51,515 nt of DNA. Origin: Parafrankia elaeagni. GTDB taxonomy: Bacteria; Actinomycetota; Actinomycetes; Frankiales; Frankiaceae. This document shows, piece by piece, positions 425 to 51,311 of the stretch; position 1 is the first letter of the stretch, and each line of letters begins with the position of its first letter. The stretch covers positions 1 to 51,515 of the forward strand of contig NZ_KB893743.1 of NCBI RefSeq assembly GCF_000374165.1, read 5' to 3'. The position numbers and the translations under genes were made by a program. Under the pieces are notes generated by a model that did no database searches, was not told the DNA's origin, and worked only from the letters and a program-made list of their open reading frames with translations.

Positions 425-431
425 AAAAAAG
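425..431 (+). promoter_or_regulatory. A AAA AAG slippery heptamer for -1 frameshifting
   Basis: The ORF A frame reads TCA AAA AAG at 423-431. Slipping back one base continues as GGG GCT GCG CAG into ORF B, which carries the rest of the DDE domain. A_AAA_AAG is the classical -1 slippery motif used by IS elements to make a fused transposase. Without the shift, translation ends at 510-512. Confidence 0.75.
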
Positions 432-5974: not shown

Positions 5975-6208
5975 CCCGGCAGGCAGCCCCAGCAACCCAC
6001 CCAACGCACAGCCTCTACCCTTGGACACACGCACCCGTCCGCTTGATGATCTCTTCTCTGGTAAGAGCGATCATTTCAGTGGGCGGGTGTCCCGCTTTCC
6101 CGAACCACACCGTGACTACGTTCCGTCACCCCAGGCCGTCACGCACGGCTCATGGCCGGACACACTCTCCAGCCCACTGCGGAGAGCCGCCAAAGTTCGT
6201 AGTCAGCC

Positions 6209-7483: not shown

Positions 7484-8216
7484 TGCGTCTCCCCCAACCC
7501 AGGCCGGCCGCTACGGAGGGTACTTCCGCATCCGGCCCCTTTGGAAGGATATTACCTTTTCACACCGAACGTCGACTGAGGGGTACTGAGGGGTGCCGTG
7601 GAGGCGTAGACACGTTCGCCGTTTCCAGGCGGTGAGGACACGGCTCCATATGGGCAGGTAGAGGTACCCCTCGGGGCCGATTGCGTCGCGCGTAGTCTCG
7701 GGGCGGTAACTGGTGATGCCTGTCCGTCCGGCCACGGTGATGTCGGGTCGGCCTGATACTCCCCTTCTGCTGGGCAGCCGGCCTCGAACACGGCAGTCGG
7801 AACCTCGGCGACGTGCCCGTCGCGCCCAAGGCATCCGTCGAGAGCAGCCCGGAAGAACTACCCCGCCCTCCGTTCCAGCGTTTAGTGGTTCGCCCGTCAT
7901 CCCGGCACAGCCGCCAGATGCCGTCGGATGGGCAGCTCTGCGCCCGAAGCCAGGCCGTGACCATCCGGCCCGCCCGACCCGGGCCCGCCTGACAGACGGT
8001 GACACGTCAGCGACCTACCCGGGGCGAGGTTCCGGGGAGCCATCGGGCCGCGCTGAAGGATTATGCCCCGCTACCAACCTCGGCGCTTCAACGTGTTGCC
8101 CTCATCACGTCATGCATCACCGTGCATGGTTCCTACGCGGGCCGTAGGCAGGTGGCTGCTCTGAGTGTGAGACGATGGATCAACTGTCAGGGGGACAGCC
8201 TCCAGGGAGCGAACCC
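7484..8216. other. Gene-poor intergenic stretch
   Basis: Several frames stay open here on both strands, but none has recognisable domains, a convincing ribosome-binding site or balanced composition (all are Arg/Pro-rich). I see no gene. The last part carries the leader of the small ORF that starts at 8217. Confidence 0.5.
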
Positions 8217-8348
8217 GTGAATGATCTTCTGAAGATTCTCCTCGGCACAGCCATAGTGATGGCAATCAGTATGGCGCTCGGATTTGTGCTGTTCGAGATG
8301 GAGCCCTACCGGCCCCAGGATCCCGTCTCGAGCGGGTCTTCGAAATAG
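8217..8348 (+). CDS. Possible small single-pass membrane protein
   Basis: GTG at 8217 opens a 43-residue ORF beginning VNDLLKILLGTAIVMAISMA and ending in a short polar tail (YRPQDPVSSGSSK). It has one strong hydrophobic segment of about 22 residues. A purine-rich CAGGGAGC element lies 9-10 bases upstream as a possible ribosome-binding site. The amino-acid mix (Ile, Met, Leu) is unlike the Arg/Pro-rich spurious frames around it, which is why I keep it. I know of no assigned function. Confidence 0.5.
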   Translation: MNDLLKILLGTAIVMAISMALGFVLFEMEPYRPQDPVSSGSSK

Positions 8349-9813: not shown

Positions 9814-10323
9814 GTGGTTCCTGTGGAGACGACCGCTGACTCGTCCGCGCTGGAATGGCGGCGCGGTCTCCCCCGCAAACGCATGGCGGCGGCGTGCGTC
9901 ATCGTCGACGACAACGACGACGGACAGGTGCTCCTGGTCCGTCCGACCTATCGGCCCGGGTGGGATCTGCCGGGCGGTGTCGTCGAGCAGGACGAGGCCC
10001 CGCTCGCGGCGGCCCGGCGCGAGCTCGCGGAGGAGCTGGGCCTGGACCGGGCGCCGGGCCGGCTGCTGGCGGTGGACTGGGTGCCGCCCTCGCCGCAGCG
10101 CACCGAGGGGCTGATCGTGGTGTTCGACGGCGGCCGGCTCACACGGGAGGAGGCCGGCCGCATCCGGCTGTCCGCCGACGAGCTGGCCGCCTGGTCGTTC
10201 GCCGCCGCCGACCAGCTGCCCGACCTCATGGCGCCCCTGCTGGCCCACCGGGTCGCCGCCTGCCTGGCGGCGCGGGCGGCCGGCACGACGGTCTACCTGG
10301 AGGACGGCGTGTTGCCGGGCTGA
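9814..10323 (+). CDS. NUDIX hydrolase
   Basis: This 169-residue protein carries a complete Nudix box at about residues 54-76: GGVVEQDEAPLAAARRELAE followed by ELGL, matching Gx5Ex7REUxEExGU. NUDIX enzymes cleave nucleoside diphosphates linked to another moiety. The short, generic sequence around the box does not allow a substrate call. Upstream residues (RKRMAAACVIVDDNDDGQVL) form the expected first strand. GTG 9814 is used as start. Its last 31 bases overlap the 3' end of the convergent UvrD-like helicase gene, so the two transcripts run into each other. A five-unit 7-bp repeat sits just upstream. Confidence 0.88.
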   Translation: MVPVETTADSSALEWRRGLPRKRMAAACVIVDDNDDGQVLLVRPTYRPGWDLPGGVVEQDEAPLAAARRELAEELGLDRAPGRLLAVDWVPPSPQRTEGLIVVFDGGRLTREEAGRIRLSADELAAWSFAAADQLPDLMAPLLAHRVAACLAARAAGTTVYLEDGVLPG

Positions 10324-12455
10324 CGTTGCCGCGGATCGGGGAGGAGAGGGGTGAGGAACGGGCTCTGGCCGCCGTGCCAGGAGACGAAGAGCTCCTCCCG
10401 CGCTCTGGTGCAGGCCACGAAGAGCAGGCAGCGCTCACGCTGGACGTCTCTGGCGTGCGCGACGTCGTCCTCGGCGGCTGGCGTGACCGCTCCCGAGGCC
10501 GGGACGTGTCCGTCGGTGACGCCGACGACGGCCACGCAGCGGAACTCGAGGCCCTTCATGCGGTGCATGGTGCCGACAGCGACGGCTGGTTCCGTGGGTG
10601 CGGCCTGTGCGGGTCTCTCCGTCGGCCGGGACAGGAGCCGGGCGGGGATGCCGAGCCGGTGCAGGGCGGGCAGCAGCGACTCGGCGAGCGTCCTGGAGCG
10701 CACAGCCACGCCGATCTCGTCGAGGGCGATCCCGGCACGCTGCCAGGCGCGCACCTGCTCGGCGGCGTCCCGCATCTCGTCGGCCCAGGTGGCGGCGCCG
10801 CGCAGGCGGGGCGTGAGGCCGTGGATCTCCGAGCGGCAGCCGGCCGCCGAGTCGAGGCCGCCGTCGATGTCGTCGATGGGTTCGCCGCGGAGCATGCCGA
10901 GGCTCCAGGCGAGGATCTCCGCGGTCGTCCGGTAGTTCACCGTGAGCCGGGTGGATCGGCCGACCACCGGGATGCCGAGTTCGCGCAGGCTGACCCGGTT
11001 GTTGTAGATGCGCTGGTGGGCGTCGCCGGCCACGAAGATGTCGTCCGTGCCCGGTTCGACCGCCGCGCGCAGGAGGCGCCACTGCACCGGGCTCAGGTCC
11101 TGTGCCTCGTCGATCACGGCATGCCGGTAGGGGCGCTGCGGCGTCCGTTCGAGGATGCGCGCGGCCTCGACGCAGATCATCTCGTGGGTCCATCGACGGG
11201 ATGCCCGCAGTTCTCGGTCGAACCGCTGCCAGGCGGCCCACACCTGGGCCCGCTGGCGTGGCCCGAGCGGGCGGCTCCGGCCGGCCCGGCGCGCCTGCTG
11301 GTAGGCGTGCTCGGTGGTGATCTCCTGTGCCAGGATGACCTGCCGCCACTCCTCCGACAGGAACGTCTCGGAGAAGGGAAGAGCGAGGGTGTGCACGACC
11401 GTGCGCCACACCGCACGTTCCTCGGTGTCGGTCAGGATGGCCGGCTGCGGGTTCCCGGTCCGGAAGATCTCGTACGCGATCTTGTTGACGGTCGCGACGG
11501 TGACGCGTTCCCGCAGGCTCGGGTCGGGCACCAGCAGGTCGAGGTCGGTGGCGAGGGAGGCGGCCATCGTCGAGGTGAAGGTCGTCAGGAGCACCTGGCC
11601 GGTGCCCTGCGCGGCGAGGTGGTGCGCCCGGTGCAGCGCGACGACGGTCTTGCCTGTCCCCGGCCCACCGGTCACCCGGGCGGGGCCGCGGAACCTGGCC
11701 TGCGCGAGGCGGCGCTGGGTCGGGTGCAGGTACACCCGCCACAGGGCGAACGGGTGCCGGAACACCTCGAGCAGCTCGTCCGGCCCGTCGACGAGGACGA
11801 CCCGGTCAGTGCTGCGTTCGACCGCGGCCGCCACGTCGTCGGCGTCGATGGAAGCCCGCTCGGCCTCGGACACCGCGCCGATCTCCGCCCACACCTCTTC
11901 CGGTGTCAGGCCCGCGGCCAGGCCGAACAGCGCGTCCCACTGGTTGGGTGGGAGGAAACCGCGCGCCATCTCCAGCTGTCGGACGTCGGTGAGCACGCGG
12001 GCGAAGGCGAGTGTCTGCTCGTCGACGCCGAGGCGGCGAAGGTCCTTGTCCGCGACGAGCGTGAAGAGCCGGTCCGGGGCCTGCTCCGCCACCGCGGCCA
12101 GCGCCGGGAGGGTGGCGTCGATCGCGACAACGTCGCGGATCTCGATGCGTCCGGTGGCCGCGTTGACGGAGGCACGGCGGCGCTGGGCCCAGGCGTAGGC
12201 GTCGTCGTGCGGGAGCACCTTCAGCAGGGTGTAGGTGTCGCCGCTGTCCGGTGCGAGGATGATGCCGCGCCAGAACCTGTCGATGCGGATCGATCGGAAC
12301 CGGTCGTCCCGGGCGTTGCCGATCTTCTCCAGGTGCAGGCCGGTGTGGGTGGCCGCCTCGAACCTGGCGAAGACGTCGAGCACCCGGTTCTGTACCTGCT
12401 TCTCCAACGCCGCGAAGCCGAGCAGGAAGTCCTTGTCGATCCCCAGTCGCGCCAT
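10293..12455 (-). CDS. UvrD/Rep-type superfamily 1 helicase with RelE/ParE-like N-terminus
   Basis: From ATG 12455 (preceded by GGTGGGAGGGAC, a strong ribosome-binding site) this is 720 residues. The first ~100 residues (MARLGIDKDFLLGF, FRSIRIDRFWRGIILAPDSG, VLPHDDAYAWAQRR) resemble the RelE/ParE-like fold found fused to some helicases. After a ~100-residue linker the SF1 core follows: Walker A VTGGPGTGKTVVALHRAHHL, motif II VIDEAQDLSPVQWRLL, motif III-like FVAGDAHQRIYN, GTMHRMKGLEFRCVAVVG and motif VI ACTRAREELFVS. It is the last gene of the drmABC operon, 88 bp after the kinase. A role in unwinding or resecting invading DNA is inferred. The N-terminal domain may bind RNA or the ribosome, or may only be a structural relic. 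Confidence 0.85.
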   Translation of the reverse strand: MARLGIDKDFLLGFAALEKQVQNRVLDVFARFEAATHTGLHLEKIGNARDDRFRSIRIDRFWRGIILAPDSGDTYTLLKVLPHDDAYAWAQRRRASVNAATGRIEIRDVVAIDATLPALAAVAEQAPDRLFTLVADKDLRRLGVDEQTLAFARVLTDVRQLEMARGFLPPNQWDALFGLAAGLTPEEVWAEIGAVSEAERASIDADDVAAAVERSTDRVVLVDGPDELLEVFRHPFALWRVYLHPTQRRLAQARFRGPARVTGGPGTGKTVVALHRAHHLAAQGTGQVLLTTFTSTMAASLATDLDLLVPDPSLRERVTVATVNKIAYEIFRTGNPQPAILTDTEERAVWRTVVHTLALPFSETFLSEEWRQVILAQEITTEHAYQQARRAGRSRPLGPRQRAQVWAAWQRFDRELRASRRWTHEMICVEAARILERTPQRPYRHAVIDEAQDLSPVQWRLLRAAVEPGTDDIFVAGDAHQRIYNNRVSLRELGIPVVGRSTRLTVNYRTTAEILAWSLGMLRGEPIDDIDGGLDSAAGCRSEIHGLTPRLRGAATWADEMRDAAEQVRAWQRAGIALDEIGVAVRSRTLAESLLPALHRLGIPARLLSRPTERPAQAAPTEPAVAVGTMHRMKGLEFRCVAVVGVTDGHVPASGAVTPAAEDDVAHARDVQRERCLLFVACTRAREELFVSWHGGQSPFLTPLLPDPRQRQPGNTPSSR

Positions 12456-12543
12456 GTCGTCCCTCCCACCGTGTCCCCGGGTTCGAAGCCCCGGAGTTCG
12501 TGAGCCCCGGGGCTCGTGAGCCCCGACGTGCGTGAGCTCCGTG

Positions 12544-14145
12544 TCAGGTCTGGCTGCCCACCGCCGCGCCGTCGGCACCTGCGAGCAGCTCGCGGACCAC
12601 GGGCACCAGGGGATGGTCCGGCCCCCAGACCCGCTGCAGGTCGGCCAGCAGCGCGGCGAGGGTCTGCGCGGCGGCCGCCCGCTGACCGGCGCCCAGCTGC
12701 AGCAGGCCGATCTGGCGGCGCAGTTCCAGGACCCGCGGGTCGTCCGCGCCGAACGCCCGGGTCTCGTCGGCCAGCAGCGCGCCGAGCTGTTCCAGTGCCC
12801 GTGCCGTGTCGCCGATCAGAGCCCGGCAGGTCGCCTCCCGCAGACGTGCGAGCAGCAGCCGTTCGCTGTCGCGACCATCCCGGCGGGTGAGATCGGTGAC
12901 GAGCCCCGCATACTCGTCGACGGCCCGGCGGAAGTCACCTCCCTCGAACATCAGCTCGGCGAGCTCGAGGCGCAGCGAGAGCACATCGGCGTTGTCGGCG
13001 CCCAGCGCCCGGCCGGCCCGGTCGACCGCCTCGGCCAGGATCGCGGCGGCCTGGCTGTGACGGGAGGATCGGGCGAGGGAGCGGGCCTCGTCCCGGATCT
13101 GGCGAAGTTCGGCCTGGTCGATGCCACCGTCGGCCGGCGGGGCAGTCGCGGGTGAGGCAGTCGCGGGTGAGGCAGTAACGGGCGACGTGGTGGCGGGCGA
13201 CGTGGTGGCGGGCGGGGCAGTGGCGGGCGGGTGCACGCGGGCAGTGATCCTGCTGTACATCCGCACGGTGTTGTCCGCGGCGGGGTCGACGAAACCGGGG
13301 AGCGCGGCCAGGTCGTCCGCCCAGCCGGTCAGGGCCTCGTACACGGCCTCGGCGCTGGCCGGCCGTTCCTCCGGCACCTTGCGCAGCAGGTCGGCGACCA
13401 GTTCGTCGAGGTCGGCGGGAACGTCGACGCGCAGGGCGCTGACCCGCACCGGGACCTCCTCGACCTGCTGGTGCATCACCGAGTAGGACGACGAACCGGC
13501 GAAGACCCGGCCGCCGGTCAGCATCTCGAACAGGGTGGCGCCCAGTGCGTACAGGTCGGTGGCCGGTGCGCTGATGCCGGCGAGCACCTGCTCCGGGGCC
13601 ATGTAGGCGGGGCTGCCGAGATGCTGCCCGGTCACGGTGATTCTCGACAGGTCGGTGCGGTCGAGTGCGACCGCGAGGCCGAAGTCGAGGACCTTGACGG
13701 TGCCGTCCGGCTCCAGCATCAGGTTGCCCGGTTTGAGATCACGGTGGACCAGGGACGCCCGGTGCGCGACGGCCAGCACCGAGGCGGCCTGCGCCGCGAT
13801 GGCGGCCGCCCACCCGACGGGCAGTGCTCCCTGCTCGGCGACGAGATCGGCGACGCTGATGCCGTGCACCCGCTGCATGACCAGATAGGGGCGACCGTCG
13901 TGCGTTCCGGCGTCATAGACCGCGGGCACCCCCGGATGTACCAGCCGGGCGGTGATGCGCGACTCCCGGATGAAACGACGAACAAGTTCCTCGTCGGGCC
14001 GGCCGTCCGGAAATCGGACGAACTTGACCGCGATCTCCCGGTCGAGTTTCACGTCACGACCGACCCAGACCTCGCCCATTCCGCCTCTGGCGAGCGGCAG
14101 GGACTCCAGCTCATATCTCCGGTCGATCATCCAGCGACCTGCCAT
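12544..14145 (-). CDS. Cytoplasmic Ser/Thr protein kinase with TPR-like C-terminus
   Basis: This 533-residue protein has a complete Hanks-type kinase domain at about residues 10-275: Gly loop LARGGMGEVWVGRD, Lys in IAVKFVRF, HRDLKPGN, VLDFGLAVALD and SPAYMAPEQ. An Ala/Pro/Thr linker of repeated PATA/PATTS units follows (about 13,140-13,230). The rest is about 190 residues of helical repeats (SRHSQAAAILAEAVDRAGRA, RRAVDEYAGLVTDLTR, TARALEQLGALLADETRAFG) of tetratricopeptide type. No membrane segment is visible, so it should be cytoplasmic. GTG 14148 directly precedes ATG 14145; either may be used. It lies 84 bp after the methylase in the drmABC operon. A kinase here may sense infection or control the system, as PglW does in Pgl; that is inference. 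Confidence 0.88.
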   Translation of the reverse strand: MAGRWMIDRRYELESLPLARGGMGEVWVGRDVKLDREIAVKFVRFPDGRPDEELVRRFIRESRITARLVHPGVPAVYDAGTHDGRPYLVMQRVHGISVADLVAEQGALPVGWAAAIAAQAASVLAVAHRASLVHRDLKPGNLMLEPDGTVKVLDFGLAVALDRTDLSRITVTGQHLGSPAYMAPEQVLAGISAPATDLYALGATLFEMLTGGRVFAGSSSYSVMHQQVEEVPVRVSALRVDVPADLDELVADLLRKVPEERPASAEAVYEALTGWADDLAALPGFVDPAADNTVRMYSRITARVHPPATAPPATTSPATTSPVTASPATASPATAPPADGGIDQAELRQIRDEARSLARSSRHSQAAAILAEAVDRAGRALGADNADVLSLRLELAELMFEGGDFRRAVDEYAGLVTDLTRRDGRDSERLLLARLREATCRALIGDTARALEQLGALLADETRAFGADDPRVLELRRQIGLLQLGAGQRAAAAQTLAALLADLQRVWGPDHPLVPVVRELLAGADGAAVGSQT

Positions 14146-14229
14146 CACACCCCCGTGCAGCTGCCCCTGTCGGACGACCCGAAATGATACGTCAGTCGGT
14201 AAAAATCCCGGCTCCCGAACCTGGAATTG

Positions 14230-16344
14230 TCAGGACCGGGTACGGTCTCCGGGCCTGCGCCGGCTGTCGACCGCACCGAGGTATCCGATCTGGATGATCT
14301 CGGCGCCCAGTTCGGAGACCTGGCGCACCGCCTTCTCCAGCTGTCCGAGCCGGTGGAAGTCCGCCGCCAGTTCCCGCTGGTCGGCGAGCTCCAGCGCGGG
14401 TATCGGGATCCGCCGCAGGTCCGGCAGTGACAGCGTCCCGGCCGGGCGGCCGCGATCCGGGTCATCGTCGCCTCGGCCGTGCGCCGCGGCCGGCCGGGAG
14501 CCCGCGGCCCGCAGACTTCCGGCCAGGAAATGAGGATCGAGGCGGTCGGGGTCGACACGCAGGAGCGCGACCTTCGGTCCGAGCACGGCGCCGGCCTCCT
14601 CGATCACCGTCGCCGCGATGCCGCCGTCCGTCGTCACGCAGACCACGTCGCCGGCCTGAAGCCGCAGCATTCCGGCACGGTCACCTGTCCGTCCGGTCGG
14701 GCCGCGGTCGTGCCGCACATCACCAGCGGTGAACATCGGCAGATCACCGCCGTCGGCTCTGGTCTGCAGGGACGCCGTCAGCATTGCCAGCGCCCCTTCT
14801 TTCGTCAGCTCACCCACCGTGTTCCAGGCGGACGGGGCTACCCTGCCCGTTTCGGGGGAGGCTGCCGATGCCGCGACAGAAGTGGGCTCACCGGCAGAAA
14901 CCGAAAGGGCCGGCGGCGACATACTCGCCGTGAGCGCGGACAGTGACGACAATGCCGTCCGGAGTTTCTCGCGCACCGCCGGAAAACCGCGCTCGGCACC
15001 GTCTGCCGGAAGCACGGCGACGCGCGGGCGCGGGCTGAGGTCGACCTGGTCGTCGAGCAGGTCGGCGACGGGAACTCGCCGGTATCCGGGTGATGGTTCC
15101 GCGCTGACCGTGCGCAGGTCCGCGCCGGCCAGGCCCATGAGTACCCGGGGGTCGGGTGGCCGGCCGTCGGGCACCCGCAGCACCCAGAGGTCGGGTGTGG
15201 AACCGGCGCCGAACACGTCGGGTGGCAGTTCGAGCACGGCACGCAGCGCCCCGGCACGCAGCAGGTTCGCCCTGATCCGCCGCCCGGCGGGGCGGGAGGC
15301 GGCGGCTGCCGGCAGGACGAGGAGCACCGCGGCACCGGGCCGGCCGTGCGCGAGGCAGTGCTGCAGCCAGGCCAGTTCCGGTTCGCCGCGGGGTGGGACG
15401 CCGTAGCGCCACCAGGGCGACCCGAGCAGGTCCTCGTGTCCCCAGGAGCGCTGACCGGAGGGAGGCGCGCACAGCACGACGTCGGCCTGTTCCCCGGTGA
15501 AGGCATCCGCGAGCAGGGAGTCCGCCGCGGCGATCCGGGCGTCGGCACCGTGGAGCAGCAGGCCCGCGGCGGTGATCCGCGCCGCTGTCGGGTCGACGTC
15601 CTGGCCGAGCAGCCGGCCCGCGCCGGCGGCCCGCGCCGCGTCGAGCAGGCCGCCGACCCCGCAGGCCGGGTCGAGAACGGTGAGCTCTTCGGCGCCGCGC
15701 CGCACACCCGCGAGCCGGACCATGAGGTCCGCGACTGCGGCCGGGGGCCCGCCGACCTGCCGGGAGTACACCTCGCGATAGCGCTGACGCAGGACCTCGA
15801 AGAGAGCGGGATACCCGGCCTGGTCGGCGGCGGTGGCGGCGGTCCGGGCGACCGGCACCCAGCTCGCCTCCCATCCGGAGGAGGGAGCGGCACCGGGCGA
15901 CCGGTGCGGCAGCTCGGACGCGGCCCGGTCGATCGCGGGCCCCAGCAGGCGGGCGGCGACGTCGTCGGGCTCACCGAGCGTTACGTCCGCCGCCTCCCGC
16001 TCGCGCTGGCGGTAGAGCAGGAAGCCGCCGAGGTGTCCGACGAGTTCGCCCAGGTGCGGGTCGTCGACGGTGCCGCGGATCTGCTGCCACACCCGGTCGC
16101 CGGCCTCGACTTGGAACGGGCGGCCATGCCGGTCGAACCAGGTCTCCACCGCGGCGAGCGCGAACAGCGGGCTGCTGGAGGTGCCGGCGACCGGGGTCGG
16201 GAAGTCGTCGAACCGGCGCCTCCAGTTGCTGACGGCCGCCCGCCCGACGCCGGCGATGCGCGCGATGTCCGACGCGGTGACCGTGGCGGTGACCGGCGCG
16301 GTGGTCGGGGCGGTGGTCGGCGCGGGAGCGTTCCGATCGGGCAT
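14230..16344 (-). CDS. HsdM-like N6-adenine methylase fused to an HsdS-like region, motif IV altered
   Basis: This 704-residue protein starts at ATG 16344, three bases after the drmC stop. Residues ~22-70 form an HTH (ASDIARIAGVGRAAVSNWRR). The methyltransferase core follows, with SAM-binding motif I LDPACGVGGLLDAAR (Asp225) and a motif II-like LGQDVDP. Motif IV, normally NPPY/F, reads CAPPSG (residues 292-297), so the Asn and aromatic residue needed for N6 methylation are both replaced. The C-terminal ~150 residues resemble a type I specificity half (GDVVCVTTDGGIAATVIEEA, LSLPDLRRIPIPALELADQR, then a long helix). It could bind specific DNA without methylating it, or have unusual chemistry. 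Position marks it as part of the drmABC operon, where DISARM normally has a true methylase. Confidence 0.82.
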   Translation of the reverse strand: MPDRNAPAPTTAPTTAPVTATVTASDIARIAGVGRAAVSNWRRRFDDFPTPVAGTSSSPLFALAAVETWFDRHGRPFQVEAGDRVWQQIRGTVDDPHLGELVGHLGGFLLYRQREREAADVTLGEPDDVAARLLGPAIDRAASELPHRSPGAAPSSGWEASWVPVARTAATAADQAGYPALFEVLRQRYREVYSRQVGGPPAAVADLMVRLAGVRRGAEELTVLDPACGVGGLLDAARAAGAGRLLGQDVDPTAARITAAGLLLHGADARIAAADSLLADAFTGEQADVVLCAPPSGQRSWGHEDLLGSPWWRYGVPPRGEPELAWLQHCLAHGRPGAAVLLVLPAAAASRPAGRRIRANLLRAGALRAVLELPPDVFGAGSTPDLWVLRVPDGRPPDPRVLMGLAGADLRTVSAEPSPGYRRVPVADLLDDQVDLSPRPRVAVLPADGAERGFPAVREKLRTALSSLSALTASMSPPALSVSAGEPTSVAASAASPETGRVAPSAWNTVGELTKEGALAMLTASLQTRADGGDLPMFTAGDVRHDRGPTGRTGDRAGMLRLQAGDVVCVTTDGGIAATVIEEAGAVLGPKVALLRVDPDRLDPHFLAGSLRAAGSRPAAAHGRGDDDPDRGRPAGTLSLPDLRRIPIPALELADQRELAADFHRLGQLEKAVRQVSELGAEIIQIGYLGAVDSRRRPGDRTRS

Positions 16345-16347
16345 CGT

Positions 16348-17223
16348 TCAGCCTCCGTCCGCCCGCTCGGCGCCGACGGGCAGGCGGGTGAGCACGCCGC
16401 TGGTCCGCAGCGCGGCGAGATGCTCCGCGGCCCGGCGCGGTGGTGCCCCGCCGCGGACGAGCAGGCCGGCTTCGATGTTCTCCTCGACGCCCGTGGAGGT
16501 GAGGTTGGCGCTCGACACCAGCAGCGCCCGCCGGTCCGCGACGGCGATCTTGGCGTGCATGCGGGCACCGGGATGACCGCGGCGGGCGGTGGGCCAGTGC
16601 CACAGTTCGACCCCACGCACCCCGGCGAACGCGGCTGCCGGCTCGCTGCCCGCCAGCCCGCCGCCGGCCCCCTGCAGGGTCTCGACGACGACGCTGACCG
16701 CGACCCCTCGCGCCGTCGCGGCGCCGAGCGCGGCCAGCAGCGGCGGGTAGGGGCGTGCCGCGTAGGTGGCGAGCATCAGTTCCGTGGTGGCCTCGGCGAC
16801 CAGGTCGACCAGTACCCGGGCGGTCGCCCGCACTGGCACCGAGCTGCTGCCCGGCCCGCTCCACACCGACTCCACCCGGGTCTCGGTGGCCCGTCGCGCA
16901 TACCCGGCGCTGACCCCGCGCAGGTAGGCGGCCGCCTCGGCCGGGGGAACGCCCTCGGCACGGCGAGCGCGCAGCACCGCCCGGACGGTGTCGCGCGCCG
17001 CGGGGCCGGCGACCGTCGCGACCAGTGCGTCGTCCCACCCGGCCCCCGCCACGGCCTCCCGGGGCAGCGCAGGTCGCGTCCCGGCCCGGTCGACGAGTTC
17101 GTCCGCGAGTGTTCTGAGCCGGGACGGACCCAGCGCGCTCACCGCCGCCTCGACGGTCGCGGCGAACAGACCGCCGGGCTCGTGGTCGGACCCCACCATG
17201 CCTGCGTCACCCACGTCCATCAC
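16348..17223 (-). CDS. drmC: DISARM-associated phospholipase D-like protein DrmC
   Basis: This 291-residue protein contains one PLD motif at about residues 223-242 (HAKIAVADRRALLVSSANLT, HxK(x)4D with the following Ser/Asn). A partner strand is seen in LMLATYAARPYPPLLAALGA. Single-motif members normally dimerise to build the active site and include nucleases such as Nuc. An N-terminal helical domain precedes it. In DISARM, DrmC is the PLD protein encoded after drmA and drmB, the same order as here. It lies 20 bp after drmB and 3 bp before the methylase. DrmC is reported to be dispensable for protection in the first characterised DISARM systems, so its role here is open. Confidence 0.85.
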   Translation of the reverse strand: MMDVGDAGMVGSDHEPGGLFAATVEAAVSALGPSRLRTLADELVDRAGTRPALPREAVAGAGWDDALVATVAGPAARDTVRAVLRARRAEGVPPAEAAAYLRGVSAGYARRATETRVESVWSGPGSSSVPVRATARVLVDLVAEATTELMLATYAARPYPPLLAALGAATARGVAVSVVVETLQGAGGGLAGSEPAAAFAGVRGVELWHWPTARRGHPGARMHAKIAVADRRALLVSSANLTSTGVEENIEAGLLVRGGAPPRRAAEHLAALRTSGVLTRLPVGAERADGG

Positions 17224-17243
17224 CGGGTCACCACGTCACCGCG

Positions 17244-19190
17244 TCACGGGAGCTCGGGGAAGAGGGCGAGGTCGCGATGCTCCGGGCCGTCGCCGAGGGG
17301 GACGACGAAGCGCCGGTCGAGGAACCGGTTGCCGCGCTCACAGGTCGTCTCGGAGACGAACAGGCAGACGTGGCAGGCGGCGCCGTGCAGGAAGTCGGCG
17401 GGGGCGGCCGGCAGGCGTTCGGCGCACAGCGGGTCGGAGGAGCAGTGCCGGGCGTCGGCCAGCGCCCGGCGGGTGAGCCGCAGCAGCTGGTCGGGTTCGG
17501 CCAGTGACACCAGCCCGCCGAGGGTGCCCTCGGCGTCGGGCACGGCGGTGTAGATGAGGATGCCGTCACGCGGGTCGTCGTCGGTGCCGGCGTAGATCCG
17601 TTCGCTCAGGCTGGCCGAGCTGTACCCGCATTCCAGGGCGATGGTGCGGATCAGCAGGTGGGACAGCGAGTGCAGCGCCAGGAAGCGCACACCGGGCCAG
17701 CCGCGCATGGGGTCGAACTCGACGGCGCCGGCGAGGCGGTCCGAGTACCGGTTCACGCGGAAGCGGCTGTAGGCGTCGCGGTGCTCGCGTATCTCCGTGG
17801 TGTCGGTGACCCCCGCCTCCCACGGCCCGAGGATCTCCTCGGACACCCGCAGGAAGATGCCCTCGCCGCGAACCTCGGTGGCCGGCACCCAGGTGGCCGG
17901 CCCGCGGGTCAGCGGTGCCCGCACGACGAGCTCCGGGTCGTCCGGGTCGGGTGCGTCGAGGCGGGTGAAGCCGGTCAGCGCCCGGACCTCGCGCAGCCGT
18001 TCGGCCTGCACGACGTCCGCGTAGAAGCGGGTCAGCCGGGGCGGCACGCCGTCCGGGTCGCGGCGCAGCGCGAAGTCGTCGGTGGCGTCGGGCAGCACCG
18101 ACGCGGAGAAGATCTCCCACTCGGGGGTCCGCAGATCCGGGTAGCCGTGTTCGTCCCCGGTGTCGGTGTCGGTGCCGTCGCCGGGTGCGGTGTTCAGGGC
18201 CGCCCGGTGATGGTCGATCGCCGACCAGATCTCGGCGTCGGTCCACCGTTCCAGCTGGCGGAACACCGGCATCACCGACCGGGAGAAGCCCATCAGCTCC
18301 GCGCCGGGGATCTGGCTGAGCTGTTCCCAGTTCTGTTCGACCTTGCTCGCCAGCTCACTGGCCCCGGTGCGGGGAACGGAGAGCACGGACAGTCCCTGGG
18401 CGAACCACTGGTTGGAGGCCCCGACCACGAGCAGGCGGGCGTCGGCGTGGCAGCCGCCGTCCGCGAACGTGCCCAGGTGCGGGTGCCGGCCGCGGCAGCG
18501 GGGCAGGTTCTCGGCGCCGCGGCGGCCTGTCGCCTCACGGATGTTGCGCCGCTGGTCGCAGTTCACGCACCGGATCTCGACGTTGGCACCGAGGTTCCCG
18601 CCCCGGTCCTCCATTCGCAGCCGCGGGTGACTGGCCTTCGCGCACCCGCCGCCACGGTGGACGAACGCCACGTAGGGGAAGTCGTCGAGGTGGCCGGCGG
18701 TGCAGGCGAGGACGAAGCGGGCGGCCACGGCCAACGGCCGCCGGCCCGACCGCTTGCGGGAGCATTCTCCGTGGAAGAAGCGCGCGTCCTGGGGACGGAA
18801 CTGCCACTGGTTCTCGAAGGCGAAGGCCGGGGAGGAGATCAGGTCGAGCTCGTTGCAGGCGGTGCAGCGCAGCCAGTTGGGGAACGGCACCGTCGGGACG
18901 CCGATCGGGGTGCCCGGAGCGCCCCGGCCCCCGGGGCCGCTGACGCCGGTGTCCGACCAGGGCGCCGGCCGCAGCTCGGTGACGTTGCGGTCGTACACGC
19001 GGCGCACGGCGGTGAGCAGCCGGGGCTCGGCGATCGGCTCGTAGTCGGGGACGTTGCGGTAGTCCCAGTCGTCGAGCCCGCGGACCAGCGTGGAGAAGCT
19101 GGGGAGGTCAACGAGGGCGCCGACCCCGCTGGTGAACATCAGATGGCTCGGCCGGACGGCGCCGACGCGCCGGTGGTGTCGCCCGCGCAT
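17244..19190 (-). CDS. drmB: DISARM protein DrmB (DUF1998)
   Basis: From ATG 19190 this is 648 residues starting MRGRHHRRVGAVRPSHLMFT, the typical DrmB opening. It carries Zn-binding Cys clusters (RCTACNELD and CVNCDQRRNIREA). The DUF1998 C-terminus has CGYSSASLSERIY and a conserved cluster (HCSSDPLCAERLP, GAACHVCLFVSETTCERGN, then LDRRF). The start overlaps the drmA stop by one base (TGATG), so translation is coupled. Known work places DrmA and DrmB in one complex that binds DNA ends or ssDNA. An in-frame extension to 19370 is Arg/Pro-rich and lies inside drmA, so it is rejected. Confidence 0.92.
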   Translation of the reverse strand: MRGRHHRRVGAVRPSHLMFTSGVGALVDLPSFSTLVRGLDDWDYRNVPDYEPIAEPRLLTAVRRVYDRNVTELRPAPWSDTGVSGPGGRGAPGTPIGVPTVPFPNWLRCTACNELDLISSPAFAFENQWQFRPQDARFFHGECSRKRSGRRPLAVAARFVLACTAGHLDDFPYVAFVHRGGGCAKASHPRLRMEDRGGNLGANVEIRCVNCDQRRNIREATGRRGAENLPRCRGRHPHLGTFADGGCHADARLLVVGASNQWFAQGLSVLSVPRTGASELASKVEQNWEQLSQIPGAELMGFSRSVMPVFRQLERWTDAEIWSAIDHHRAALNTAPGDGTDTDTGDEHGYPDLRTPEWEIFSASVLPDATDDFALRRDPDGVPPRLTRFYADVVQAERLREVRALTGFTRLDAPDPDDPELVVRAPLTRGPATWVPATEVRGEGIFLRVSEEILGPWEAGVTDTTEIREHRDAYSRFRVNRYSDRLAGAVEFDPMRGWPGVRFLALHSLSHLLIRTIALECGYSSASLSERIYAGTDDDPRDGILIYTAVPDAEGTLGGLVSLAEPDQLLRLTRRALADARHCSSDPLCAERLPAAPADFLHGAACHVCLFVSETTCERGNRFLDRRFVVPLGDGPEHRDLALFPELP

Positions 19191-22100
19191 CAGGCACCTC
19201 TCCTCTGCCGGGGCCGGGCCGGACCGGCCAGCCGGGTCTCCCCGAGCTCGTCGCCGACCGGCGCGTCCTCGTCGTCCAGGTCGGGCCCGCCGGCGGCGGC
19301 TGCCGGTCCGCCGGCGGCGGCCGGCGCGGCAGGGGCAGCGGCGGGGCTGGCCGGGGTGCCGAAACTCCACGGCGGATCGACGAGGTTGTGGTTGTAGAGC
19401 TCCTCGCCGGCGGGGACGAGGAGGCTGATCTCGTGTTCGGTCTCGCGCATCGACTGGGCGACGGTGAGGACCTCCCAGCGGCCGTGGCCGGCCGGTTCCA
19501 GCAGGCCGGTGAGTCGTTGCTGGCCCGCGCCCGCGCCGCCGCCGCGCTCGGTGTAGCCGAGCCGGGCCGGACCGGTGCGCATCAGCTGCCAGCGGTCGAC
19601 GAGTTCGCGGAGCCGTTCACCGAGGTACTCGGCGCCGCGCGGGCCGGCGACGGCCTCCGCCCGGGCCAGCAGCCGGCCGATCAGCCGGGTGGCGACGGGG
19701 CCGGTGAGGTCGACGTCGTGCGCGTCGATGTTGCGGGTGTTCGCGTCGTCGAGGTGGCGCAGCGCGGCGACGAACGCACCGGTGGCCGTGCGGTCGAGGG
19801 AGCGCCGGGTGAACGGGGTGACCGACAGTGCCTCGACCTGCCGGTAGAAGCTGGCGTGGTAGGGCTCGAAGTCCTCGTAGTGGGCGAGGTCGCGGGGCCG
19901 CGCCCAGTTGTAGAGGGTGACGACGAGCCCGGGGCGCGCCGCGTCCCGGCCGACCCGGGAGGACGCCTGGATGTACTCGGCGGTGTTCTTCGGCTGCCCG
20001 ACGACGGCCATCAGCCCGAACCGGGAGACGTCGACACCGACCTGCAGCATCGACGTCGCCAGGACGACGTCGACCGGCCGGCGGGCCTCCCGGGCACGCC
20101 ACTGTTCGGCGACCGGATGTGCGGGGGGCCGTTCCCGGGTGCGGCTGTCCCGGATGCTGAGCGTTTCCCGCCAGGTGTCGGCGATCGCGTGGCGCCGGAC
20201 GGAGGTGTCCAGCTCGGCGTCGAACGCGATCTCCAGGCGCTTCAGGACGTCGCTGATGTCGGCGGAGGAGACCCGGGAGGTCAGCTCGCTGATGGTGAGC
20301 ATCGCCGCGCTGGGGCCGAGCCGGTTCGACAGCCCCTTGCGCGTGCCGTGGGTGCGTACCCGGGTGGTGACGTCGTCGTCGAGGTAGCGGCGCATGCCGG
20401 CGAGTTCGCGGGTGGCGTTGAAGTAGCCGACGAGTGTCTGGTACGGCTCGGCGGCCTCGCCGTGCCGGTCGAAGAGGGTCTGCCCGGCCAGCAGCAGGAT
20501 CTCGGCGAGCCGGATCTGGGCGGACTTCATCCGGGTGCCGTGGGCGCAGATGCCCAGATAGCGCCGCCCGGGGTTCTGCGGGCTGACGGGGACCTGGCGG
20601 GAGAAGAACGTGTCGGTGACGTCGACGACCTGCGGCGGGAAGACGGCCAGCCGGCGGCCGAACACGCCGAGGACCTGGTCCCGCGCCCGCTTGGTGGTGG
20701 CGGTGGAGGCGACGATCTTCGGCCCGGCCAGGGCGGGAGCGCCCGTGTCACCGGCGATCCCGTCACCGGCACCGGAGGGCAGCGGCCAGGAGCACAGTTC
20801 GTCCACCGCGGCCTCGAACAGGCCGACGGTGGTACCGAGCGCGCCGGAGATGAGATGCAGCTCGTCCTGGATGATCAGGTCGGGTGGGCGCAGCCGGCGC
20901 ACCGGTTCGCTCGTCACCTTCGGCAGGTCGCCGCGGCGCTGGTGGCTGGACCCGCAGCCGGTCCGCGCGTCGAGGTCGTCGTGGCGGTAGCCGTGCCGCG
21001 GGCAGCGCTGGCGCACCCGGCCGAACAGGATGCCCGCCTCGCCGCGCCACGGCAGCTGGGCGAGCTTGTCGACGGTGGCGATGACGAGGCTGGGGGCGTA
21101 CCGGTAGATCTCCTCGTCGACGGTGAGCACCGGCAGGCCCTCCCCCGGTGCGAGCCGCTGGGAGAACGGACAGGCGTCGGAACCCTCGCCGTTCGGGCAG
21201 TAGAGCAGCACGCGGCGCAGGTTCTCGTCGGGGTGGGCGTCGCGGTGGGCGGCGAGCACCGTGCCGCACCACGGGCAGCTCAGCGTCTGCAGGACGTTGG
21301 CCCGCTTGCCGTCCCCCACCTCACGGGCCTGGCTGATCTGGTCGGCGGCGTCCTTGAAGTTGTTCGGGGAGACGCCGCTGCCCACCCACAGGCCGATCCG
21401 GAACCGTTCCGCCCCCCAGGTGGCCTCGTCGGCGCGGCGCAGCACCTCCGTGGCGCAGACGAGGGCGGCCGCCCGCTGGAACTGCTGGGCGGTCAGCAGC
21501 CGCAGGGTGTAGCGCATGAGGACGGCGACCCCGGCCTCGCCGGAACGTGCGTCGGCCCCGGTGCCGACGGTGCCCTGCAGCCGGCGGATCGCGAAGGTGT
21601 ACGCGGTCAGCCCCAGGTAGGCCTCGGTCTTCCCACCGCCGGTGGGAAAGAACAGCAGGTCGACGAGAGCGTCAGCGTCGGCGGCCCGCTCCGGGTGCGC
21701 CGGGTCGGTCAGCGCCGGCAGGTTGAGCAGGACGAACCCGAGCTGGAACGGCCGCCAGGACGCCGCCGCCGCGCCCTGTGCCTCCACCCGGGCCTTCGCC
21801 TCGGCGTAGGTCAGGCCGTGCTCGTCGCGGAACCGGGCGATCGCGGTGTGCCGGCGCTGCGCCGCCATGGCCTGGTTGGCGAAACGGAAGGCCGCCAGCG
21901 CCTGCGCGTGGTGCGGCCGCGCCGGATCCGTGAGCAGGGTGATCCCGGCGCGGATGCGGGCGGCCGCTCCCCTCGCCTCGCCGATGGCGATGCGGGCGGT
22001 GGGCCGCAGCCGCGGCGGCAGGCCTGGCAGCTGCTCGTTCTCACGCTCGTCGAGCCAGGCGTGGTAGCCGTCGGCGAGCGGTGTCAGCCCGCGGTGCAGC

Positions 22101-23248
22101 TGCGCCGCGTCGGCGGCCGCGAGCGCGTCCATCGACAGCTCCACACCCGCCAGCGGCGTACCGGCGCCCGCCGGCGCGATGGTCGACGGGACGTCGTAGC
22201 TGGGCAGCCAGGTGGTCTCCAGCCGGTGTGCGCGACGCTCACCGGGCCGGACGGAGGGGTGCACGGCGATGTTGCGGCCGCTGGCGTAGCGCCGCTCCCC
22301 CCGGTAGAGCAGCCGCAGGTGCAGCTCCTCGTGGTCGGAGTGGTCGGCCGCGCCGCCGTCCTCGGGATCGTCGATCGGCAGGAAGACGGCCCGTTCCCCG
22401 TCGAGCGCGGTCACGGTCAGCGTGGCCTGGAACAGCCAGGCGGTGTCAGCCCGGGACGGCGGCTCCGGCTGCCCGTTGACGAGCGTCAGCTCGACGATCC
22501 GCCGGCCCGGCCGCTCCCGCAGGACGACGGCGAGGAACACCCCGGTCTCGGCATCGCCGACCAGCGGCACCCGGAAGGCGTCGGCGCCGAGCGAACCATC
22601 CAGGCGGATCTCCCGGTTCGCGTGCACAACCGGCTCCCGGGCCCAGACTGTGAGCGTGCGCCCCTCGTCGTCCTCGGTCTCCTGCCGGACGTACCGGCCC
22701 CAGCTGGCGGTGACGGCGACGACGTCGACCGCCGCACCGTCCGCGCTGGCCGCGCTGGCCGCGCCGCTCGCTCCGGGCACGCTGGCCGGGACGGCGAACG
22801 ACAGGCCCATCGAGGACGCCCAGATCCGGCCCCGGGCCTGTGGGGTGAGAACCTCGGGCAGGTCGCTGTCGGCGTCGCCCTGCACCGCCGTCTCGGTGTC
22901 GGCGACCGATTCGGCCGCCGCCGCCTCGCGGGCCCCGCGCGGTGCGGGCTTCGGGCCGAGCATCCCGACGAGGTAGCGCTCCCGGGGCCCCATCGCCCGC
23001 GGGTGGAACACCTCGTGCTCCCCGTCCCACGGCCCGAGCAGGTCACGCCGGACGAGTTCGGCGAACGCATCCCGGACCTCGTACGAGGTCGCGGGGACGA
23101 ACTCCCCCGGCCTGTCCAGGATTTCCGTGGGTGACAGGGCGTCCGCGGTACCGGCGCCGCCCGCGCTCGCACCCCCCGATCCGGCGAGCGTGGGCGAGGC
23201 GCCCTTCTCGGCGGGAAACAGCGCGTCCTGACGATCCTGCGTCACCAC
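19190..23248 (-). CDS. drmA: DISARM helicase DrmA
   Basis: This 1,352-residue SF2 helicase begins at GTG 23248 (or 23245) after GGGGGAGATGAGCC. The N-terminal ~530 residues are family-specific. Walker A FFPTGGGKTEAYLGL lies at 533-547. A Cys-rich insertion (CPWCGT...CPNGEGSDACPF) at 658-694 probably binds zinc. Motif II DLIIQDELHLISGALG (DELH, 795-798), motif III TATTKRARDQV, and the C-terminal helicase lobe with ATSMLQVGVDVSRFGLMAVV and YIQASSRVGRD follow. The last ~80 residues are an Ala/Pro-rich tail. DrmA with DrmB is the defining DISARM core. It is the first gene of a six-gene minus-strand operon running to 10,293. A 260-bp divergent spacer to the DUF4190 gene should hold its promoter. 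Confidence 0.93.
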   Translation of the reverse strand: MVTQDRQDALFPAEKGASPTLAGSGGASAGGAGTADALSPTEILDRPGEFVPATSYEVRDAFAELVRRDLLGPWDGEHEVFHPRAMGPRERYLVGMLGPKPAPRGAREAAAAESVADTETAVQGDADSDLPEVLTPQARGRIWASSMGLSFAVPASVPGASGAASAASADGAAVDVVAVTASWGRYVRQETEDDEGRTLTVWAREPVVHANREIRLDGSLGADAFRVPLVGDAETGVFLAVVLRERPGRRIVELTLVNGQPEPPSRADTAWLFQATLTVTALDGERAVFLPIDDPEDGGAADHSDHEELHLRLLYRGERRYASGRNIAVHPSVRPGERRAHRLETTWLPSYDVPSTIAPAGAGTPLAGVELSMDALAAADAAQLHRGLTPLADGYHAWLDERENEQLPGLPPRLRPTARIAIGEARGAAARIRAGITLLTDPARPHHAQALAAFRFANQAMAAQRRHTAIARFRDEHGLTYAEAKARVEAQGAAAASWRPFQLGFVLLNLPALTDPAHPERAADADALVDLLFFPTGGGKTEAYLGLTAYTFAIRRLQGTVGTGADARSGEAGVAVLMRYTLRLLTAQQFQRAAALVCATEVLRRADEATWGAERFRIGLWVGSGVSPNNFKDAADQISQAREVGDGKRANVLQTLSCPWCGTVLAAHRDAHPDENLRRVLLYCPNGEGSDACPFSQRLAPGEGLPVLTVDEEIYRYAPSLVIATVDKLAQLPWRGEAGILFGRVRQRCPRHGYRHDDLDARTGCGSSHQRRGDLPKVTSEPVRRLRPPDLIIQDELHLISGALGTTVGLFEAAVDELCSWPLPSGAGDGIAGDTGAPALAGPKIVASTATTKRARDQVLGVFGRRLAVFPPQVVDVTDTFFSRQVPVSPQNPGRRYLGICAHGTRMKSAQIRLAEILLLAGQTLFDRHGEAAEPYQTLVGYFNATRELAGMRRYLDDDVTTRVRTHGTRKGLSNRLGPSAAMLTISELTSRVSSADISDVLKRLEIAFDAELDTSVRRHAIADTWRETLSIRDSRTRERPPAHPVAEQWRAREARRPVDVVLATSMLQVGVDVSRFGLMAVVGQPKNTAEYIQASSRVGRDAARPGLVVTLYNWARPRDLAHYEDFEPYHASFYRQVEALSVTPFTRRSLDRTATGAFVAALRHLDDANTRNIDAHDVDLTGPVATRLIGRLLARAEAVAGPRGAEYLGERLRELVDRWQLMRTGPARLGYTERGGGAGAGQQRLTGLLEPAGHGRWEVLTVAQSMRETEHEISLLVPAGEELYNHNLVDPPWSFGTPASPAAAPAAPAAAGGPAAAAGGPDLDDEDAPVGDELGETRLAGPARPRQRRGA

Positions 23249-24273: not shown

Positions 24274-25497
24274 TCAGGCCGATCGCCCACCCTGACGGTT
24301 CGGGCGGGACTGGGCCAGATCTCGGCGCAGGCGCTTGAGACTGACGAGTCGCCCAGTCGTCGGGTCGGGCGCCTTCCAGAAGTCCCAGCCGTCCGTCGAG
24401 CGGGCGCTCTCCGGCAGATCGGGTCCGACGATGTCCACCTTCGCCGCCGCCCCCGCCGCGCTCAACGAGAGCCGCTGCCCTCCGAAACTGACCATGCCGT
24501 CCGACCGTACCTGCGCCTCCCGCTGCCGGCCGCGGTACACAGCGGTCAGCGCACTGCCAGCCTGCACCAGCCCGGCGGCGAGAAGATCGGTCATACCCAG
24601 ATCCCGTTCCACACGGGTCACCCGGGTGGAATCCGCTGACAGGGGCACAGCCTTCGACGGGTTAGCGCCGGTGGCCGGGGCCGCCGGACGGCCGTTCAGC
24701 TCAGGCGGACCCGAACGGCCTGCCCCTGCCGTTCGCCCCGGTGAAGACGAATCGCTTCCGGAAACATCCGTGGCAGCCGGCAACGCCTCCCGAGGTGCCG
24801 GGACCACGCTGGAGACCAGGCCCGCGGCGGGGAAGTCGAAGGCCGCGCGGACCCGGATCAGCGCGTCCCGTACCTCAGCCTCGTTCAGGCCCGGCGCGCG
24901 GCGGCGGACCAGCGCGGCCAGCTCGGGCGCCGGTTCCCCTCCGTCGAACAGCTCCGTGAGCGCCGACCGGACCTGCCCGTCGACGAACTCCGAACGCCAC
25001 AGGTCCTCGATGCGATCACTGCCCAGCACGTCCTTGCCCAGCAGTTCCAGAACGCGTGCCGCCTCGTCGGTGCTCTCCGCGGGACGGACCGTCCGGTAGA
25101 GCTTCTGCTCGACAGGCACGGGGGCGTGCGCGTTGTAAATGCGCCATTCCGCGCCGTTCGTCAATACCACCCAGCGCACCCCGGCAGCCGAGGCGTAGCT
25201 GAGTATCTGCGTCGCCCACCTCAGCTGGCCGAGATCCTCGCCGAGGCCTTTCGCCTCGATGAAAAGACAGGGCCTGCGCCGCAGCAGCAACGCATAGTCG
25301 ACAGGGTTCGCCGACCCGCCGTACCGATACTCCCGGTTGACCTCGTCAAGATCGTGAATGTCCCATCCCAACGCCTCGATGACGGGCTCGATCAGGCTCG
25401 CCTTCGTGTTCTGCTCACCGATGCGCTGCCCGCCGTACCGTTCCAGTCGCCGGACGCAGTCACCGAGCGTCTCAAGAAGCGTGCGTGCCACTCTCAC
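24274..25497 (-). CDS. Type I restriction R subunit-like nuclease-domain protein
   Basis: This protein of about 407 residues has an HSDR_N-type nuclease domain. NTKASLIEPVIEALGWDIHD leads into a PD-(D/E)xK core: Asp67 in NPVDYALLL, then Glu81 and Lys83 in CLFIEAKGLG, followed by the family's VLTNGAEWRIYNAHAPVPVE. There is no helicase domain, so it is a stand-alone nuclease-like or regulatory member. The C-terminal third contains a Ser/Pro-rich linker and a short domain ending in ARSTDGWDFWKAPDPTTGRL, resembling RAMA/DUF4357-like ends. Start is uncertain: GTG 25497 is chosen before the conserved region, while ATG 25566 is also in frame. It lies next to the drmABC operon but is separated from it by a convergent gene. 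Confidence 0.75.
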   Translation of the reverse strand: MRVARTLLETLGDCVRRLERYGGQRIGEQNTKASLIEPVIEALGWDIHDLDEVNREYRYGGSANPVDYALLLRRRPCLFIEAKGLGEDLGQLRWATQILSYASAAGVRWVVLTNGAEWRIYNAHAPVPVEQKLYRTVRPAESTDEAARVLELLGKDVLGSDRIEDLWRSEFVDGQVRSALTELFDGGEPAPELAALVRRRAPGLNEAEVRDALIRVRAAFDFPAAGLVSSVVPAPREALPAATDVSGSDSSSPGRTAGAGRSGPPELNGRPAAPATGANPSKAVPLSADSTRVTRVERDLGMTDLLAAGLVQAGSALTAVYRGRQREAQVRSDGMVSFGGQRLSLSAAGAAAKVDIVGPDLPESARSTDGWDFWKAPDPTTGRLVSLKRLRRDLAQSRPNRQGGRSA

Positions 25498-25670
25498 CCC
25501 AGTCGCCGGTGTCGTCACCCCGGGCAGCGAACGACAGCAGACCTCGCCACCACCAATCAGTATCATCCGGTTACTCAGTGGCGCCCAGTACGGCAATCAC
25601 CATCGGCGGCTGTTGCCCCAGGCGGAGTACTGACAAGACTCCGTGTCGTCCAAGGATTCGAGGCGCGAGG

Positions 25671-51290: not shown

Positions 51291-51311
51291 TGCCTGGATA
51301 GAGTCCGGGCT

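Follow-up and report, generated by a model that had tools for sequence, protein, structure and literature searches.

A class 1 DISARM locus of Parafrankia elaeagni with a conserved downstream extension of methylase-like, kinase and helicase genes

The defence locus described here lies on a contig of Parafrankia elaeagni (NCBI RefSeq assembly GCF_000374165.1, contig NZ_KB893743.1), where six minus-strand genes combine the drmA, drmB and drmC genes of DISARM with genes for a methylase-like protein (MT), a cytoplasmic Ser/Thr kinase (KIN) and a UvrD-type helicase. The genome comprises 7.6 Mb in 135 contigs, one of which (C74; 51,515 bases) makes up in full the window, i.e. the whole stretch of DNA that was analysed; the nearest named relative of the strain is Parafrankia colletiae (MT identity 96-98%). 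An original prediction, made from the sequence without database searches, had read this gene set as matching neither known class of DISARM. We find that it is a conserved extension, seen in soil actinobacteria, of the anti-phage system class 1 DISARM and not a new class, and that the locus is very probably a class 1 system with a tail specific to one clade of the helicase DrmA.

Gene content of the locus

As predicted, all six open reading frames (ORFs) are present and intact, following one another on the minus strand from 23248 to 10293, and the three drm genes exceed their NCBIfam cut-offs:

19190 to 23248, minus strand: drmA, YprA-type SF2 helicase of DISARM (NCBIfam short form DrmAS, NF038325, DISARM_DrmAS, 1363.8 bits, cut-off 950; DrmA in PADLOC)
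17244 to 19190, minus strand: drmB, DUF1998/MZB protein (NCBIfam DrmB_fam, 691.4 bits, cut-off 240; Pfam MZB)
16348 to 17223, minus strand: drmC, PLD-family nuclease (NCBIfam DISARM_DrmC_I, 239.4 bits, cut-off 133; Pfam PLDc_2)
14230 to 16344, minus strand: MT, helix-turn-helix (HTH), HsdM-like N6-methylase domain (Pfam N6_Mtase) and HsdS-like recognition domain
12544 to 14148, minus strand: KIN, cytoplasmic Ser/Thr kinase with TPR-like C-terminus (Pkinase, E 5.2e-39)
10293 to 12455, minus strand: UvrD helicase with weakly RelE/ParE-like N-terminus and intact Walker motifs; start at about 12455

The DrmA motifs GGGKT, DELH and STAT are all intact. HxKx4D can be seen by eye in the DrmC translation; a stricter motif pattern gave no match. 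The ATG of drmB at 19190 lies within its TGATG overlap with drmA, and the predicted gaps of 20, 3, 84 and 88 bp fit the coordinates, the 84-bp gap if the kinase starts at the ATG at 14145. Full operons in other genomes are compact, with spacings from 4-bp overlaps to about 130 bp; larger overlaps stem from the choice of start codon.

Class 1 DISARM partners

As set out in the PADLOC paper (PMC9252829), class 1 DISARM is defined by five core genes. Besides drmA, drmB and drmC, we found both drmD and drmMI: the DrmMI model scores above 1000 bits and the DrmD model above 1200 bits in all 12 genomes searched. Under loose limits, weaker matches turn up in 5 (DrmMI) and 12 (DrmD) of 14 control genomes, so that score and place decide these calls. 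In Micromonospora noduli and Kribbella, drmD and drmMI lie directly upstream of drmA and the order is drmD-drmMI-drmA-drmB-drmC-MT-KIN. In Pseudonocardia, where the five class 1 genes also form one cluster, a 753-residue gene without family match and a 129-residue ORF stand between drmMI and drmA, while in Amycolatopsis and Micromonospora musae drmMI is split by contig ends. The set is divided by 8.7-47 kb in four Frankia genomes, with drmMI on the same strand upstream of drmA at about 9.2 kb (G305), 8.7 kb (G325), 12.5 kb (G318) and 47 kb (G309); G297 and G326 have drmMI and drmA on separate contigs. In the window, the C-terminal part of drmMI is found 27 kb upstream of drmA on the same strand:

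50517 to 51231, minus strand: C-terminal part of drmMI (class 1 DISARM methylase), near the right contig edge, cut off at a multi-copy repeat
51232 to 51515, no strand assigned: one end of the multi-copy element adjoining the drmMI fragment; these last 284 bases of the window recur at 99-100% identity on four other contigs of the genome

The remainder of drmMI and a full-length drmD stand side by side on contig C101 of the same genome. In every case where drmMI and drmA share a contig (in the window, part of drmMI), drmMI stands upstream in the same orientation.

As drmD and drmMI are found with drmABC, the system is assigned to class 1 DISARM plus a tail, and neither the statement that the gene set matches no DISARM class nor the proposal of a subtype without drmMI and drmD can be upheld. 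A normal drmMI lying just outside as the true partner had been named in the original prediction as a finding that would refute it, and the positions above largely bear this out; the drmMI fragment was omitted from that account, as was the degenerate motif IV of MT described below. No match to the class 2 markers DrmE and DrmMII was shown among the seven window proteins scanned with PADLOC and NCBIfam, no genome-wide search for them having been made.

Distribution of the tail among DrmA types

In a survey of 394 genomes led by DrmA, loci were separated by DrmA identity over 500 residues into close (at least 69%) and distant (52-60%). Among the 17 close loci (7 Frankiaceae and 10 others), KIN is present in 15, MT in 12 and a downstream UvrD in 11 (truncated in G318), with a divergently oriented UvrD in one more (G544). 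The 13 distant loci contain neither KIN nor MT and no UvrD on the same strand (one on the opposite strand); one of them, G301, ends about 2.9 kb after drmB and is too short to show a kinase. For the kinase, a Fisher test (15/17 vs. 0/13) gives p = 1.8e-6, which is a guide only since the loci are related. In a phylum-wide sample, none of the 24 other DrmA-positive genomes examined (of 26; G195 and G116 left out) has a kinase near drmA.

The kinase-positive DrmA proteins are also held together by phylogeny. Twenty kinase-positive rows of the DrmA tree lie on one side of a single branch (support 92), and the 22-row clade that holds them (support 98) has two further members without kinase. The kinase tree shows broadly the same subgroups; on it the DISARM label takes two changes, and one origin is possible. 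All trees were made with FastTree or quick methods and come with long-branch warnings.

The order drmA-drmB-drmC-MT-KIN recurs in Frankia, Micromonospora, Pseudonocardia, Amycolatopsis and Kribbella. The suggested recurrence of the last three genes beside drmABC is therefore borne out for the MT-KIN pair, in these five genera, and in part for UvrD, which comes directly after KIN in Kribbella, Amycolatopsis and Frankia other than G309. In the two Micromonospora, UvrD is set 3-7 kb beyond that point, and none was found in the locus of Pseudonocardia. Because the five loci outside Frankia (two from Micromonospora, one each from Pseudonocardia, Amycolatopsis and Kribbella) were retrieved with an MT query, they cannot gauge how frequent MT is beside drmA, for which only the DrmA-led sample can be used.

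Separately, one of the 24 phylum-wide genomes (G023) has MT and UvrD near a more distant drmA: its locus L076 (5232-16730) holds an MT-like gene, a UvrD helicase of the same type, a McrBC-family gene and an AAA_5 gene, and drmA starts at 13587.

The MT-kinase module outside DISARM

A contig scan led by MT returned at least 597 stretches and 555 relatives, 80 of these being kept as loci. A kinase match is present in 69 of the 80, whereas drmABC precedes MT in 8, each time with KIN after MT; three Frankiaceae records among these 8 sit on the same contigs as G297, G325 and G326. MT and kinase without drm genes occur in many Streptosporangiaceae and some Thermomonosporaceae. Directly divergent from MT, a PP2C-like phosphatase is encoded in 33 of the 80 loci, 30 of them with a kinase match (Pfam confirmed one member of the cluster, to which the 33 have at least 50% identity). 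Only 2 matches to MT were obtained from 72,556 plasmid records, both under 60% identity and 44% coverage.

In other loci MT adjoins a DruE-type helicase. PADLOC identifies this arrangement in L067, L074 and L075, the last of which (55-8272) contains an MT-like gene followed by a 2097-residue fusion of a Ser/Thr kinase, a DruE-type YprA helicase and an MZB domain. By tblastn alone, DruE is found in L107, L122, L153, L170 and L178; UvrD and kinase are also present in L122, L153 and L170, and L107, from Streptosporangium carneum, has an MT-kinase-UvrD set beside the DruE-type helicase. Next to DruE is a gene of 1105-1165 residues that was called "DruH" from its size and position; PADLOC gave no match to it, which leaves the assignment of those loci to a Druantia type unproven.

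Could the tail (MT, kinase, RelE-UvrD and sometimes a GmrSD-like protein) be a defence system of its own that came to lie beside DISARM and acts without it? We regard this as a serious, though minority, possibility. The MT family mostly occurs without drm genes, the set in S. carneum stands beside another helicase, and the DISARM-linked MT proteins fall in three places of the MT tree, all of which would suit such a system. However, within our sample the DISARM kinase is limited to one DrmA clade and nearly fixed there, the DrmA and kinase trees broadly agree, and the operons are compact, with genes that overlap or abut, e.g. in Kribbella.

The MT protein

The description of MT as an HsdM-HsdS-like protein holds: in addition to the N6_Mtase domain, a profile of the C-terminal 200 residues matched in the PDB, at E <= 1, only 5ybb and 3okg, both type I S subunits (E ~1e-8). 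The best PDB matches of an AlphaFold model of MT (mean pLDDT 84.2) are type I methylase subunits.

An active N6-adenine DNA methylase is marked by a motif IV of the form [N/D/S]PP[YFW]. The window MT keeps the S-adenosylmethionine (SAM) motif I, DPACGVGG, but its motif IV, CAPPSG, departs from this form in lacking the catalytic Asn and the aromatic residue; in the alignment to solved methylases, NPPF of motif IV reads APPS. Across 17 DISARM-linked MT copies, all seven from Frankiaceae are without the catalytic Asn (APPS in the window and P. colletiae, GPPS in four, APPF in one) and motif I is kept in the Frankiaceae copies. Outside Frankiaceae, motif IV is NPPF in four (Pseudonocardia, Amycolatopsis and the two Micromonospora), DPPF in three, DPPY in one and VPPF in one, with a gapped CD-PVV in Kribbella. 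The MT of Frankiaceae is thus probably a pseudo-methylase, judged by its motifs unable to methylate, and of the "non-standard methylase" originally proposed the methylase-like domain stands while the activity probably does not. Methylation can be supplied apart from MT, as DrmMI keeps NPPF on the C101 piece and in all eight copies whose motif was read out (six Frankiaceae, Kribbella and M. noduli, with Pseudonocardia L221 not among them).

Estimated with a simple Nei-Gojobori count over frames running from stop to stop, the ratio of nonsynonymous to synonymous substitutions (dN/dS) of MT is 0.29-0.43, vs. 0.18-0.27 for drmA in the same four comparisons among four Frankia genomes; the value of 0.71 between the window and P. 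colletiae rests on few changes. These values indicate that the protein is constrained by purifying selection, more loosely than drmA. In a FastTree tree of MT, the 17 DISARM-linked copies occupy three positions, from which it appears that the MT slot of the operon was probably refilled; one gain followed by losses is possible in principle.

Both Micromonospora genomes have a second MT gene with motif IV HPPF upstream of drmD (L231 2738-4678, minus strand; L232 12836-14773, plus strand), and in M. noduli a gene for an OGG-like glycosylase (L222 17872-18738) lies between the second MT and drmD.

Integrity of the locus in the window strain

The drmMI frame ends at the edge of a repeat both in the window and on C101. 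On C101, the stretch from base 24 to about base 290 recurs at 100% identity on five other contigs and in one further copy at 92%, and contigs C13 and C92 carry diverged copies of both repeat ends about 1.1 kb apart, as one insertion element would give. The drmMI of the window strain is probably interrupted by an insertion, an assembly artefact being the other possibility. It is therefore conceivable that the locus is decaying in this strain, with drmMI interrupted, MT catalysis lost and the gene set split by 27 kb. The two frame ends at the edge of a multi-copy element fit such a decay, but all six genes are intact and conserved in relatives, the relatives keep drmMI open, and the contig break at the repeat could itself stem from assembly. 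On balance we consider decay possible, yet the less probable state of the locus.

Kinase, UvrD helicase and GmrSD-like protein

The predicted cytoplasmic kinase is confirmed by its Pkinase match, and its catalytic motifs K, HRD and DFG are intact; for the TPR-like repeats, the TPR_12 match falls below the cut-off. Similarly, the UvrD part of the predicted RelE-like/UvrD helicase is secure, whereas the RelE-like part is weak. The N-terminal ~110 residues have RelE3 as top PDB match (E 0.14), and Pfam ParE_like matches 4 of 14 members (best E 0.0023), the window protein itself staying below the cut-off. An AlphaFold model of the UvrD protein (mean pLDDT 80.5) has UvrD helicases as best PDB matches; among 259 Foldseek matches at E <= 0.001, the best 50 are helicase-type throughout and so have no bearing on the RelE domain. 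A GmrSD-like gene comes next in 11 of 15 loci outside Frankiaceae (4/5 MT-led and 7/10 DrmA-led), vs. none of 7 in Frankiaceae and, apart from two weak matches, none of the 13 distant-DrmA loci. A PDC-S68 protein that contains helicase domains is encoded in M. noduli as well, and a PDC-S37-like protein in Pseudonocardia.

The kinase might instead regulate expression or activity of the defence operon under stress and have no part in recognizing foreign DNA. Kinase control of immune operons is in print for CapK/CapS (PMC13373217), and the divergent PP2C gene in related loci suggests a reversible switch. On the other hand, no separate regulator gene common to the DISARM-linked loci turned up, although no systematic search was made, and the HTH sits in MT. 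We judge this explanation unlikely.

Comparison with known systems

The clade has DrmA, DrmB, DrmC, DrmD and DrmMI of class 1 DISARM, and where the locus is compact their order is conserved. The clade differs in the addition of MT, kinase, RelE-UvrD and often GmrSD, and in Frankiaceae drmD-drmMI is displaced from drmABC. A new DISARM class in which MT replaces DrmMI and DrmD is absent, a reading prompted by the lack of any drmMI, drmMII, drmD or drmE match shown within 10293..23248, is refuted as stated by the high-scoring DrmMI and DrmD in 12/12 genomes and the position of drmMI upstream of drmA, and is highly improbable.

According to Bell et al. (PMC12458937), ARMADA type II consists of a BrxHII-like helicase, a PglX-like methylase, a YprA helicase and a RelE-UvrD helicase, the first two being counted as common to ARMADA type II and class 1 DISARM and the RelE-UvrD gene being essential for defence. 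The set drmD-drmMI-drmA ... RelE-UvrD runs parallel to it. In the present clade, however, the YprA helicase is a DISARM DrmA, DrmB and DrmC are separate, and a kinase and a type I-like MT precede UvrD; the window DrmA exceeds the DISARM DrmA cut-off and does not qualify as an ARMADA-clade YprA, as judged without a tree that includes ARMADA helicases.

Pgl/BREX type 2 likewise joins a methylase-like protein and a Ser/Thr kinase in actinobacterial phage defence, but the six proteins include no PglZ or PglY by NCBIfam, and KIN reaches 65 bits with BREX_PglW (cut-off 990). For MADS, compared here by family names alone, the PADLOC families mad2 (more weakly mad1), mad6 and mad8 are among the matches of MT, kinase and UvrD; the NCBIfam scores of these proteins, the only ones scanned, are far below cut-off (MAD2 23.8 of 720, MAD6 123.4 of 460). 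With these sub-cut-off matches and a DISARM-type DrmA, we ruled out MADS, Pgl and ARMADA as membership and not as likeness. Related MT genes, some with kinase and UvrD, adjoin DruE-type helicases in other actinobacteria, which recalls Druantia, whereas no DruE is found among the scanned window proteins.

Among the papers listed in searches of open-licence literature (titles and abstract openings), none on a DISARM operon with a kinase was found, which does not establish absence from print. A figure legend in Bell et al. (PMC12458937) mentions many uncharacterised DISARM-like classes, and these may include the kinase-bearing clade.

Neighbouring genes

One further gene in the vicinity of drmA is of uncertain DISARM membership:

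24274 to 25596, minus strand: protein with HSDR_N and RAMA domains

In 5 of 7 Frankiaceae loci (the window counted) a homologue is encoded upstream of drmA; none turned up in the other DISARM loci that were searched with this protein. The 27-kb stretch between drmMI and drmA also contains two plus-strand ORFs for SNF2-type helicases (26825-27814, matching HmaA/DrmD profiles, and 29108-30886, DpdE/DrmD), an insertion sequence transposase (36435-37274) and several defence-like genes: a second kinase (33208-34992), an nSTAND3 protein (40423-42399), a TIR-like protein slightly under the cut-off (42396-43130) and an HTH protein (43141-44607). Downstream of the operon are a large serine recombinase (871-3078) and two transposases (3486-4688 and 4638-5969), which suggests that the region 871-5969 is mobile or has been repeatedly invaded.

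Proposed mechanism and significance

According to Bravo et al. 2022 (PMC9142583), a trigger loop keeps DrmAB autoinhibited until DNA with a 5' overhang opens it, while the nuclease and further sensing subunits of DISARM, the way it is switched on, and the agent of DNA destruction when DrmC is dispensable are left open. For Pgl, the kinase activity of PglW is reported as essential for resistance and signalling by phosphorylation is proposed (PMC4365076), and kinase-phosphatase TerY-P triads are described as accompanying other restriction systems (PMC11090510).

We propose that the tail acts as a recognition-and-phosphorylation module that gates the DISARM core. One DrmA clade would have acquired the downstream MT, kinase and RelE-like/UvrD helicase, usually with a GmrSD-like protein outside Frankiaceae. 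DrmMI would mark self DNA, and DrmAB would load, in the published manner, onto foreign DNA at its free 5' ends. MT, with its HTH and type I-like recognition domain, may serve as a sequence-reading DNA sensor, in Frankiaceae probably a non-methylating one that keeps its SAM-binding motif. On foreign DNA it could signal to the kinase, which would phosphorylate DISARM subunits or the putative effectors of the tail (RelE-UvrD, GmrSD) and thereby license the attack. Taken as a whole, from gene content to switch, we hold this explanation to be evenly poised between right and wrong.

Several observations weigh against it. The kinase is absent from 2 of the 17 close-DrmA loci, and as MT is missing from 5 and a downstream UvrD from 6, only the kinase is nearly fixed; the idea that the whole tail is fixed was dropped. 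The UvrD gene of G318 appears truncated, and MT-kinase pairs come without DISARM in most of the 80 kept loci. NPPF in four and DPP[FY] in four DISARM-linked MT proteins show that the catalytic loss is not general. The window strain's own DISARM copy may not work, as its drmMI is probably interrupted. We had also considered MT dead across the clade, and abandoned this because the first DISARM-linked sample was all Frankiaceae and the copies of Micromonospora, Pseudonocardia and Amycolatopsis have NPPF.

A bolder form of the proposal, a kinase-licensed DISARM, is speculative and on the doubtful side. Here a pseudo-methyltransferase that keeps its SAM motif would read phage DNA through an exchangeable type I-like recognition domain and, via the Ser/Thr kinase (reversed by PP2C in related stand-alone pairs), would switch on the YprA-helicase core together with RelE-UvrD/GmrSD effectors, related modules serving DISARM and Druantia-type systems alike.

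A nearly fixed kinase in one DISARM clade offers a direct handle on DISARM activation. MT-kinase genes beside DruE-type helicases, and the RelE-UvrD end common with ARMADA type II, suggest that control and effector layers have been exchanged among YprA-helicase defence systems. Finally, MT, exchanged in a fixed operon slot and with its catalytic motif lost in one lineage, provides a testable case of a methylase that may have turned into a sensor.

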